NCBI RefSeq assembly: GCF_029906345.1
Contig: NZ_JARYGY010000003.1
Coordinates: 248,001 to 312,000 of the forward strand
DNA: 64,000 nt
Direction of reading: 5' to 3'
Source: Aquimarina mycalae
GTDB taxonomy: Bacteria; Bacteroidota; Bacteroidia; Flavobacteriales; Flavobacteriaceae
Positions 52,877-56,160 of this stretch are shown one piece after another. Within the stretch, counting starts at the first letter, position 1. Each line of letters starts with the position of its first letter. The position numbers and the translations under genes were made by a program. The notes beneath the pieces are model-generated. The model did no database searches, was not told the DNA's origin, and saw only the letters and a list, made by a program, of their open reading frames with translations.

Positions 52877-54034
52877 TCAACTTTTTCTCAATTCTGTTGA
52901 GAATAATTCATCATTTAACCTGAATTTTAACAACTGATTTTCTCGAACTACCTCTACTGTAACGTTTTCGTTATATATTTCCCTTTTATTACCTATAATT
53001 TCTCTGTGTCCATAAAATTTTTCTAAATCTCCAATTTTTTCAATTTTCGGAATGAATTTGACAGCGTTTTCGGACAACTTCTCGGTATATTGAATGGCAA
53101 TATCCACATTTTTTTTATCCAAAATTACATCTCTTATGATAATGTCATAAAAACATTTGCCATTTTCAGGAATATCAAAATATTTTTGATAATATTCTCC
53201 TGTTACGTTTTTTTCTGAAATATATCCTACTGCTCTAATAAGCGCATAAAAAATAAACTCTCGGGTTTTTTCACGACCATAATCATCCTTATAATGTCCT
53301 GCTTCAAATAATATGGTCGGTATCTCCATATCCGACAATGTATCACCAACACAATTGATATTAAAACCATCATCATACCTTCCTATACTATTTGGAATAC
53401 ATTGTTGTAATACAGTATTGATCTCTGATATGATTTCCATCGCAATCTTTCTGCAGGGAGTTATAGAGCGATCTTTATCACCAGCAGGAGACAAAAAAGA
53501 AACAGTAGCAGACGAATTCACCTCTCCTGCACTAAAGATAGTGCGTTGTCCATGCAAATTAAAAGCATAATGGGGTTGAACTCTTTGAATCACTTTACTC
53601 AGAATTACACTTTCTTTTTGAGTTCTATTCTGAGCGTCTCGATTAAGATCTACTTGGTTATAATTAAGTCTTGTATATGCTTTTGCTCCATCTGGACTTA
53701 ACATAGGTATTATATATAAAGTACAGGATGTCAAAATATGTTTAGAAAGTTCATTAGAACCATCATTAAGCATATTTATAAAGTCAAAAATTCCTTTTGT
53801 AGTAGTGCTTTCATTCCCATGCATTTGAGACCAGAATAATAACTTCTTAGGTCCATTACCTAATTTTATAAGATGGATAGGTGCATTATTTTCAGAAGTA
53901 CCTAAAAATTCAACACAGTCTTTTTTTGACAAAATTTCTATTAGAGGGTTAATATGCTCTAAATGTATATAGCGTCCATATAAAGAAAGCTCTTTGTATG
54001 TAGTAAACCAATTCGATAATTCGTGAGTATTCAT
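52877..54034 (-). CDS. M14 family zinc carboxypeptidase
   Basis: 385 residues. The zinc ligands are in MHGNEST (His72, Glu75), with the third histidine in YAFNLHGQRT; LNRDAQNRT carries the substrate arginine, and TILFEAGHYKDD the catalytic glutamate. There is no signal peptide, so it acts in the cytoplasm. The first four-residue region MNTH is a plausible start. Three palindromic TTTACA-N2-TGTAAA sites lie just upstream of its start, on the side of the divergent XRE gene. Confidence 0.92.
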   Translation of the reverse strand: MNTHELSNWFTTYKELSLYGRYIHLEHINPLIEILSKKDCVEFLGTSENNAPIHLIKLGNGPKKLLFWSQMHGNESTTTKGIFDFINMLNDGSNELSKHILTSCTLYIIPMLSPDGAKAYTRLNYNQVDLNRDAQNRTQKESVILSKVIQRVQPHYAFNLHGQRTIFSAGEVNSSATVSFLSPAGDKDRSITPCRKIAMEIISEINTVLQQCIPNSIGRYDDGFNINCVGDTLSDMEIPTILFEAGHYKDDYGREKTREFIFYALIRAVGYISEKNVTGEYYQKYFDIPENGKCFYDIIIRDVILDKKNVDIAIQYTEKLSENAVKFIPKIEKIGDLEKFYGHREIIGNKREIYNENVTVEVVRENQLLKFRLNDELFSTELRKS

Positions 54035-54096
54035 AAATCTATAAAAGCGTCTAAATTACTACTGTTTAAGGAAGATTCATAACAATTAATTTAATT

Positions 54097-54110
54097 TTTA
54101 CAGATGTAAA
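54097..54110. promoter_or_regulatory. Operator-like site 1, TTTACA-GA-TGTAAA
   Basis: A perfect 6-base inverted repeat with a 2-base centre, 63 bases from the M14 start. One of four such sites in this gap. Confidence 0.65.
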
Positions 54111-54121
54111 CTTCAATTATT

Positions 54122-54135
54122 GTTACAATTGTAAA
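54122..54135. promoter_or_regulatory. Operator-like site 2, gTTACA-AT-TGTAAa
   Basis: Same motif and spacing as site 1, with five of six bases paired per arm. It starts 25 bases after site 1. Confidence 0.6.
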
Positions 54136-54144
54136 TTATCCGCA

Positions 54145-54158
54145 TTTACAGATGTAAA
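54145..54158. promoter_or_regulatory. Operator-like site 3, TTTACA-GA-TGTAAA
   Basis: Identical to site 1, and 23 bases after site 2. It ends 8 bases before a TATCTTTG promoter element. Confidence 0.65.
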
Positions 54159-54166
54159 CAACTATT

Positions 54167-54174
54167 TATCTTTG
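54167..54174 (+). promoter_or_regulatory. Candidate -7 element (plus strand) after operator site 3
   Basis: TATCTTTG fits TAnnTTTG. Operator site 3 covers the region just upstream. It would give a long leader to the XRE gene, or a transcript with no other obvious gene. Confidence 0.35.
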
Positions 54175-54344
54175 TTTGTTTAAAATGTTAAACAGCATGT
54201 TTATATCGATTTAAAAAGAACCTTAAGTTATTAACAAATAACAAGGGTCATTTTATAAATATTGCTAATATTCTGTTTTTCAATGTTTAAATTACATTTA
54301 TTTAAAGTGTATATTTAATATTAAGTAACGATTCTTTTTAGTAA

Positions 54345-54358
54345 TTTACAAATGTAAA
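54345..54358. promoter_or_regulatory. Operator-like site 4, TTTACA-AA-TGTAAA
   Basis: Perfect copy of the motif, 22 bases upstream of the -7 element at 54381 and so covering its -33 region. Two imperfect copies follow (54379-54392 and 54414-54427). Confidence 0.65.
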
Positions 54359-54380
54359 CTCATTTTTTAAACCGTTTGTT

Positions 54381-54388
54381 TACCTTTG
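54381..54388 (+). promoter_or_regulatory. Candidate -7 element for the XRE regulator
   Basis: TACCTTTG fits TAnnTTTG. Transcription would start near 54395, 25 bases before the ATC at 54420. It overlaps a degenerate operator copy. No -33 TTG is seen; operator site 4 lies there instead. Confidence 0.45.
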
Positions 54389-54419
54389 TAATCATATTGC
54401 TAACTTAAATCTGTTTACA

Positions 54420-54896
54420 ATCGTCAACACAGCTGCTTTCGGAAAAAGAATACAAGAAATCATGAAGTTCTATCATGTTTCTGCGTCAGGATTTGCTGAT
54501 GCGATGGGCGTTGGACGTTCTTCTATTTCGCATATTCTTTCTGGTAGAAACAAACCCAGTTTAGATTTTGTAATGAAAATTACCGAAGCTTATCCCGAAG
54601 CTGAATTATACTGGTTATTGTATGGAAAAGGCACATTTCCTAAATCTGAAAAACCTACAAGTATTGACCAGATAAAACCTCAAACTTTAACGCCACCTTC
54701 TACTCCAACGAAAATTACAGAACAAATCACATCGAAACAAGATTTGTTCTCACCACAAACATCTACTTCAAAACCAGATATAAATACTACTCCTGAAGCG
54801 GAAAAACCTGTTAGACAGGTTTTGTCTACCACTAAAGAGATTAGCCAGATCGTAATTTTTTATATAGATGGTACATTTGATGTGTTCAAGAATTAA
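54420..54896 (+). CDS. XRE/CI-like helix-turn-helix regulator, apparent non-ATG start
   Basis: The helix-turn-helix is clear: SASGFADAMGVGRSSISHIL followed by SGRNKPSLDFVMKITEAYPE and LYWLLYGKGTFPKS, typical of flavobacterial XRE proteins. The first ATG (54462) would remove the preceding VNTAAFGKRIQEI, which forms the first helix and looks conserved. No ATG, GTG or TTG lies in frame upstream, so I place the start at the ATC (54420), giving about 158 residues. The C-terminal half is Thr/Pro/Ser-rich and ends in VIFYIDGTFDVFKN. It probably binds the four palindromes upstream. Confidence 0.7.
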   Translation: MVNTAAFGKRIQEIMKFYHVSASGFADAMGVGRSSISHILSGRNKPSLDFVMKITEAYPEAELYWLLYGKGTFPKSEKPTSIDQIKPQTLTPPSTPTKITEQITSKQDLFSPQTSTSKPDINTTPEAEKPVRQVLSTTKEISQIVIFYIDGTFDVFKN

Positions 54897-54976: not shown

Positions 54977-55354
54977 ATGAAGCGAGTCGCTTTTCTATTA
55001 TTTATCATCATTTTTATTTCGGGTTGTTACCAACAAGAACGGGATTGTACGGATTTTCAAACAGGTACTTTTGAATTTGAGACCTATCTTAACGGAGAAC
55101 TAGCTAAAACTACTTTTATTCGTAATGATTCTATTGAGATTGATTTTTTTCAGGGTAAAAGTGATACCGCTAGCATTCGATGGATAAATGATTGTGAATA
55201 CATCGTAAAAAAACTGCATCCAAAGAATATGGCAGAAGAAAAAGCTATACATATGAAAATATTATCTACCGATAAAGACACTTATACTTTTGAATATGGA
55301 TTGGTAGGCGCAAAAAAAAATAAACAAAGAGGAACCGCTAAAAAAATTAAATAA
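54977..55354 (+). CDS. Small lipoprotein, unknown function
   Basis: 125 residues. The signal MKRVAFLLFIIIFISGC ends in a lipobox cysteine at position 17. The mature part is a beta-rich domain with DFQTGTFEFETYLNGELAKT and RNDSIEIDFFQGKSDTASIR. I recall similar proteins near TerC in Flavobacteriaceae, sometimes misnamed as topoisomerase IV because of their position. It overlaps terC by one base (stop TAA / start ATG), so the two are coupled. Confidence 0.75.
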   Translation: MKRVAFLLFIIIFISGCYQQERDCTDFQTGTFEFETYLNGELAKTTFIRNDSIEIDFFQGKSDTASIRWINDCEYIVKKLHPKNMAEEKAIHMKILSTDKDTYTFEYGLVGAKKNKQRGTAKKIK

Positions 55355-56160
55355 TGTTAGAGATTTTTACAACCGCAGATGCCTGGGTAGCCCTGTTAAC
55401 ATTAACATTTCTTGAAATTGTACTTGGTATTGATAACATCATATTTATTTCATTAGCCTCAAGCAAATTACCAGATCAAGAACAAAAAAAAGCAACCAAT
55501 ATAGGGTTGTTATTGGCAATGGTAATGAGGATAGTGTTGTTATTTGGAATTTCTTTACTTGTGGCTATGGAAGCTCCTTTCTGGCATATCAATCTCCCAT
55601 GGATTGAAGCAGGAATCAGTGGACAATCCTTAATACTCTTTGGAGGTGGAATGTTTCTATTATATAAAAGTGTTCATGAGATTCATGAAAAAGTAGATGA
55701 AAAAGGAGAAGAAGAAAAAGAAATTCAAGCCAAAAGTTCTAGCTCACTATCCAAAGCTATCGTTCAGATCACTTTGATTAATGTAGTGTTTTCTTTTGAT
55801 TCTATTCTTACCGCTGTTGGTATGACAAATGGATTAAGTGATAATCCAACTGATGCATTAATTATAATGATCATTGCTGTAGTAATTTCTGTTTTGATTA
55901 TGATGGTATTTGCTACTCCAGTAGGGCGTTTTGTAAACAAACACCCTTCTATACAGATACTTGGGCTTTCTTTTTTAATTTTAATCGGTTTCATGTTGAT
56001 TGCAGAAGCTGCACATCTTGCACATCTCCAAATATTTAATACAGAAGTAGGTACCATACCTAAAGGATATTTATATTTCACGATTGCATTTTCTCTATTT
56101 GTGGAGTTTATCAATTTTAAACTAAGAAAAAACGGGAAGCCTCAGAAACAAGAAGATTAA
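55354..56160 (+). CDS. TerC family integral membrane protein
   Basis: 268 residues and about seven membrane segments. The conserved aspartates are in EIVLGIDNIIFISL and in VFSFDSILTAVGMTNGL, which also contains the family GMT signature. TerC proteins are linked to tellurite resistance and, in newer work, to metal (manganese) export for secreted proteins; the substrate here is untested. Its start overlaps the lipoprotein stop. Confidence 0.92.
   Translation: MLEIFTTADAWVALLTLTFLEIVLGIDNIIFISLASSKLPDQEQKKATNIGLLLAMVMRIVLLFGISLLVAMEAPFWHINLPWIEAGISGQSLILFGGGMFLLYKSVHEIHEKVDEKGEEEKEIQAKSSSSLSKAIVQITLINVVFSFDSILTAVGMTNGLSDNPTDALIIMIIAVVISVLIMMVFATPVGRFVNKHPSIQILGLSFLILIGFMLIAEAAHLAHLQIFNTEVGTIPKGYLYFTIAFSLFVEFINFKLRKNGKPQKQED

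Follow-up and report, generated by a model that had tools for sequence, protein, structure and literature searches.

Can a cluster of palindromes beside a single small regulator gene be read as the operator array of that regulator, and is such an arrangement peculiar to the genome in which it was seen? The window (the whole stretch of DNA analysed, 64,000 nt) contains an XRE-type regulator gene (xre; 54420..54896, plus strand) and, divergent from it, an M14 peptidase gene (52877..54034, minus strand). The gap between the two genes holds repeated copies of the 14-bp palindrome TTTACA-N2-TGTAAA. To our knowledge, operators have been defined for few of the regulators known from Bacteroidota, and no description of the XRE regulator or of the motif was found in the open-access literature.

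Sites, gene start and product in the window

An earlier note on this DNA had listed six palindromes in the gap, and all six were recovered at their positions, three of them exact, one with one mismatch and two with two mismatches. The cluster next to M14 (D) comprises D0 (54097..54110), an exact palindrome and the outermost site of the Aquimarina array, with an offset kept in most of the 30 Aquimarina loci; D1 (54122..54135), with one mismatch; D2 (54145..54158), again exact; and the degenerate D3 (54179..54192), absent from the earlier list, which has three mismatches, retains the outer arms TGTTTA...TAAACA and lies 34 bp from D2 (54145), in register with the better-preserved D3 of relatives. 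The cluster next to xre (P) consists of the exact site P1 (54345..54358), located upstream of the -7 box of xre, and of P2 (54379..54392) and P3 (54414..54427), each with two mismatches. P2, 234 bp from D2, includes the candidate -7 box of the xre promoter, TACCTTTG (54381..54388, plus strand), and P3 includes the likely start codon. The box fits TAnnTTTG, the sigma-A -7 consensus as given in excerpts of PMC9723704. A clear -33 box for xre was not found in the window sequence. The first three sites are about 24 bp apart (25 and 23 bp), as had been noted earlier, but this amounts to about 2.3 helical turns instead of the two turns proposed. The stretch between the clusters (54260-54344) has AT-rich positions conserved in Aquimarina, without a palindrome, and is perhaps curved DNA or another binding site.

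Three exact copies of the motif occur in the window, compared to a mean of 0.04 and a maximum of 1 in 300 dinucleotide shuffles. The densest 350-bp cluster (up to two mismatches) holds six sites, compared to a maximum of three in 300 such shuffles. The site cluster at the XRE-M14 gap is far beyond chance.

The regulator gene of the window most likely starts with ATC (54420), the alternative being CTG at 54411, and the gene start is corrected in this way. A start at 54462, the first canonical ATG, was rejected because it would remove the first conserved helix. No in-frame ATG, GTG or TTG occurs between P1 and the ATC in the window. ATC stands at the start in the window and in one relative (L006), ATG in the other 28 of the 30 Aquimarina loci. 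Since the XRE proteins of the window and of L006 are 72% identical and both begin with ATC, a sequencing error is unlikely.

The product scores 31.3 bits with HTH_3 (PF01381, cutoff 23), which places it in the XRE/HTH_3 superfamily, and 29.2 bits with Phage_CI_repr (PF07022, cutoff 22), as does an HTH of the CI type. In the AlphaFold2 model, a confident HTH (residues 4-68) is followed by a disordered linker and a C-terminal beta hairpin (residues 143-157). Fold matches to an MPnS domain, designed DNA-binding proteins, C.AhdI, C.BclI, SinR, P22 c2 and 434 Cro all had E values above 0.001, and no solved structure of a sequence relative was found at E 0.001. Within the variable disordered linker, a D-L-F-S motif (residues 108-111; window 54741-54754) is conserved in Aquimarina.

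Conservation of the array

A match to XRE was obtained in 48 of the 56 Aquimarina genomes searched (own genome included), some of them weak, and 30 loci, again including the own one, were compared. In all 30, xre is flanked by M14 and by a downstream lipoprotein-like gene (54977-55354, plus strand, in the window), which is followed in 29 by a TerC-family gene (55354-56160, plus strand) as a further context gene. Site offsets are nearly constant, although the intervening sequence varies. D0, D1 and D2 follow each other at 25 and 23 bp, often with D3 34-35 bp further on, while P1, P2 and P3 come in steps of 34-35 bp, with the start codon within P3 in 28 of the 30 loci. Between three and eight sites with up to two mismatches were counted per locus, with few in the most distant members of the genus (L032-L034). 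The Aquimarina alignment also contains a conserved block between D0 and M14 (54052..54084, minus strand) with no clear TAnnTTTG. It is possibly the M14 promoter in this genus, a weak assignment, and the M14 promoter in Aquimarina is not visibly covered by sites.

XRE was matched in 186 of the 199 Flavobacteriaceae genomes searched (about one per genus). The genera compared comprise the window, 28 of the best-ranked matches and the next 80 in rank, a sample that leans towards better-scoring XRE matches; L211 was too short for the site counts, which cover 108 genera, and L145, a second Aquimarina, was excluded. On average, 4.56 sites with up to two mismatches were found upstream of XRE, compared to 0.27 in shuffled sequence, and 2.54 compared to 0.026 at up to one mismatch; as the genera share ancestry, genus counts are not independent. 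In a set of 80 loci from named genomes (the best 80 of 582), each contains at least four sites; M14 is divergent in all 80 and in 106 of 109 genera. Sites and register are thus kept in the 30 Aquimarina loci and in the 108 genera, the conservation on which the earlier note had made its reading depend. Its view that so many sites are unusual for a single regulator is not supported, since this arrangement (mean 4.56 over the 108 genera) is usual for XRE in Flavobacteriaceae. Judged by sequence comparison, the array is typical of its family and not a local oddity.

A P2 equivalent is absent in 18 of the 108 genera. In the 90 genera having one, this best proximal site contains TAnnTTTG in 83 and has TT at the two free positions in 84; at D2, the free bases are AT, AA and TT in 34, 29 and 19 of 92 genera, respectively. 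The D1-D2 pair is present in 92 of the 108 genera and missing in 16. On its reverse complement, D1 holds a TAnnTTTG facing M14 in 86 of these 92. The distance between the start of D1 and the M14 start codon is 13-17 nt in 56 of the 86 genera measured. No TAnnTTTG facing M14 was seen in the D sites of the window, and Aquimarina differs in this respect from most genera.

In 78 of 108 genera, the start codon falls within a site placed at -6. The other 30 are without a site of up to two mismatches at -6, and in some of these (e.g. L148 and L161) the site is found one helical turn further upstream. Start codons assigned by script over the 108 genera were ATG in 102, TTG in two, and ATC, ATT, GTG and AAA in one each, the AAA being a misplacement. 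Apparent non-ATG starts at the operator were observed in L180 (ATT), L216 and L237 (both TTG) and L243 (GTG), from which it follows that such starts arose more than once. The Asn at codon 3 is encoded by AAC in 96 of 101 cases, compared to 232 of 873 Asn codons at other places in these genes, and 79 of 108 genera have T at -6. According to excerpts of PMC6847099, A at -6 is a positive determinant in F. johnsoniae. The bias towards AAC at codon 3 and the T at -6 suggest that the start-codon site is more than a translation signal. In L012, the palindrome is perfect and the ATG is located 12 nt further on; from this locus and the ATC starts we infer that operator and start codon compete.

The 13 Flavobacteriaceae genomes without an XRE match, some of which are incomplete, retain M14 in nine cases, and in seven of the nine M14 adjoins the lipoprotein-like gene across a short gap. 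The region upstream of M14 is free of sites in six of the nine; the other three carry one or two sites with two mismatches, and one of these three genomes offers only 234 bp of this region. No clustering of exact motif copies was found in the 13 genomes. One deletion may have removed XRE and the sites together, in which case their joint absence would be weaker evidence than site decay.

Beyond the family, 17 loci (16 from other families of the order and one from the same genus) all contain at least one site with up to two mismatches, and some contain arrays. In the class, XRE was matched in 73 of 247 genomes (six of these belonging to the family and one to the order). The 28 class loci compared include several from other orders with an array but no M14, and some with no array at all. 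M14 as an invariant partner holds in Flavobacteriales and fails in the other orders compared. There, the array gene has a gene for a metal-dependent repressor, a ZnuA-like gene or a TonB-receptor gene next to it, or a RecF-like gene upstream. In another order, the array lies by a divergent gene of the iron-dependent-repressor type (L276), a ZnuA-like gene (L287) or a TonB receptor plug gene (L281), and the same metal-related surroundings were judged by eye for L277 and L280. In five genomes of another family (L288 and L290-L293; Pfam check on L288 only), the regulator and the array are located just downstream of a same-strand RecF-like gene. The metal-related neighbours and the TerC-family gene downstream of xre hint at metal homeostasis.

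Other copies of the motif and the phase between the clusters

A genome-wide search for the palindrome, as proposed in the earlier note, found that the motif is not scattered: five exact copies occur in 5.19 Mb, and three of the five fall in the XRE-M14 gap. The longer pattern GTTTACANNTGTAAAC (up to two mismatches) had 41 matches in the own genome, compared to 32 for a control pattern, which together with the share of exact copies in the gap points to a single array without a clear regulon. The first of the two remaining exact copies is found inside a long coding frame, read as aspartokinase/homoserine dehydrogenase. The other is situated between a secretion-tail-domain gene and a TPR gene, beside a terminator-like hairpin, and has a one-mismatch partner 103 bp away (locus L001, 1398-1514, own genome). 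This site pair was rejected as a second target because no site occurs within 400 bp upstream in any of the six best-matching relatives of the TPR gene (67-77% identical, one 59%). In these comparisons, the two exact copies outside the array show no conserved role.

Over 30 Aquimarina genomes, 124 exact sites were found, 65 in the array and 59 elsewhere. The latter number compares to 33 for the control pattern (hand count), so that a few extra targets are possible. When 20 non-array exact sites from other Aquimarina genomes were sampled, 18 were located inside stop-to-stop frames of at least 150 codons, and two had an orthologous partner within the sample. With the other exact sites lacking a conserved role and no genome-wide excess of the motif, a genome-wide regulon is not supported.

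D1 and D2 are 24 bp apart in 91 of 92 genera and 23 bp in the remaining one, as determined with a script that accepted spacings of 23-25 bp only. The D2-P2 distances of 84 genera group near 192, 202, 213, 224, 234, 243 and 255 bp. Their Rayleigh R at 10.5 bp is 0.79, which was matched by none of 5000 uniform sets, and is 0.53 on the 21 distinct values alone. Pairing of 179 loci on an M14+XRE tree gave 89 pairs, of which 24 differ by at least 3 bp. For these 24 independent pairs, V at 10.5 bp is 0.49, matched by none of 20,000 random sets. In this pairing, four Aquimarina values (247-257) probably stem from misassigned sites and should blur the phase signal, and some species are represented both among the loci from named genomes and among the others. 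The phasing of two clusters by which a looping repressor is recognised was found both over the 84 genera (R 0.79) and in the 24 pairs (V 0.49). Steps of about 10.5 bp in the D-P distance suggest looping, and this keeping of phase supports contacts between the D and P clusters, possibly through a DNA loop.

Proposed mechanism and known systems

Based on these comparisons, XRE very probably constitutes an inherited autorepressor circuit of lambda-like layout, with the sites as its operators. Palindromes of the same kind lie on the regulator's own promoter, beyond chance and conserved. The proposal of an autoregulatory operator array is well supported, as the sites and their register are conserved along with the XRE gene, and genomes without XRE have no sites or weak ones only. 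Weak points of the operator reading in the window are the degenerate D3 and the two mismatches each of P2 and P3. Spacing alone would point to cooperativity among the sites. The most telling features, absent from the earlier note, are the -7 box and the start codon inside sites, the helical phase kept between the two clusters and the non-standard start codon of the window.

XRE dimers would bind palindromes of 14-18 bp in cluster D, by M14, and in cluster P, at the XRE promoter and start codon. The P sites over the -7 box, over the start codon and upstream would block transcription initiation and early elongation, and would thereby act in repression. Most genera carry a -7 box in D1 that faces M14, with D2 immediately upstream of it, and M14 is probably co-repressed there. 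The Aquimarina D sites are found upstream of the block that may be the M14 promoter, which would leave their effect on M14 less clear. With spacings of 23-25 or 34-35 bp within clusters and a constant D-P phase, the bound proteins might touch across a DNA loop. The simplest function would be a tight control of the amounts of regulator and M14 enzyme.

The sites could also bind XRE with D controlling M14 and P controlling xre separately, without a loop, the phase then reflecting another constraint such as curved DNA. Each cluster adjoins its own gene and the intervening stretch has conserved AT-rich positions, as this alternative would have it; we consider it possible but rather unlikely, as spacer changes group at multiples of about 10.5 bp in non-overlapping locus pairs. 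Lambda CI at PRM combines activation with self-repression, and by analogy XRE might activate M14 from D while repressing itself from P. The location of the Aquimarina D sites upstream of the conserved block, the possible M14 promoter, is in line with such a role. However, D1 contains the M14-facing -7 box, a blocking position, in 86 of 92 genera, and genera without XRE retain M14, which makes activation improbable.

It is very unlikely that the sites serve another regulator with a similar palindrome which XRE merely adjoins. XRE-type genes are common neighbours of many things, but arrays accompany XRE without M14 and are missing where M14 stays and XRE is gone. In addition, out-of-family homologs with a recognition helix of the RS(S/A/R) type have 4.3 sites (n=21) compared to 2.2 for the others (n=18), in a grouping made post hoc. 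Hardly any credence is given to a remnant of a phage immunity region or of another mobile element, even though the HTH scores above the Phage_CI_repr cutoff, the protein matches phage repressor families in PHROGs and the site spacing resembles that of lambda operators. Most members of the family carry the locus beside the same host genes, and none of the seven proteins scanned around XRE is encoded by a phage gene (Cro, integrase, lysis or structural). This agrees with the earlier statement that no phage genes are nearby, and conserved host genes flank the locus. A phage immunity region was rejected on account of these scanned proteins and the retained host synteny.

Taken together, the regulator of this circuit may belong to the core of Flavobacteriales, be related to regulators in further orders of the class and have no recognisable target beyond its own locus. 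Its phased and looped array would use both divergent -7 boxes and the start codon as operator, and operator and start codon would compete, so that some lineages have a site one turn upstream of ATG and the window gave up ATG for ATC. We put this fuller reading forward tentatively, as quite possible but short of probable. Comparing genomes was enough to draw a complete operator map of a regulator that was matched in 186 of the 199 Flavobacteriaceae genomes searched, and looping in helical phase is a prediction open to simple reporters. The array is also a large natural data set in which operators, promoters and a start codon use the same bases.

Among known systems, a restriction-modification controller was rejected, as no restriction endonuclease or methylase gene occurs among the seven proteins scanned. 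C proteins such as C.AhdI and C.BclI are small autoregulatory HTH proteins with operators on their own promoter. XRE would share these traits and has them among its nearest fold matches, but it differs in having no restriction-modification gene among the scanned neighbours and many more putative operators, and in not being mobile. HigA-type antitoxins have the HTH fold in common with XRE. The match to the HigA model is weak (NCBIfam TIGR02607, 23.1 bits, cutoff 47.7) and no toxin family was found among the neighbours scanned, for which reason a HigA antitoxin was rejected. SinR-type regulators are likewise chromosomal HTH proteins that are not phage-borne. SinR has the antagonist SinI and other targets, whereas no antagonist gene was recognised and no regulon found for XRE.

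The OR and OL regions of lambda, 434 and P22 form two clusters of palindromic operators, several to a promoter region and spaced by about 23-24 bp. XRE resembles these systems as a small HTH protein of the CI/Cro type whose putative own-gene operators overlap promoters in two clusters of similar spacing. In contrast to them, its locus has no Cro partner and no phage genes and is inherited with host genes. The operator sequence is different, the -7 box and start codon lie within the putative operators, and a short beta hairpin takes the place of the cleavable C-terminal domain of CI. We rate the system as one that works like the operators of the lambda and 434 type without being phage, ordinary for its family and unusually clear.
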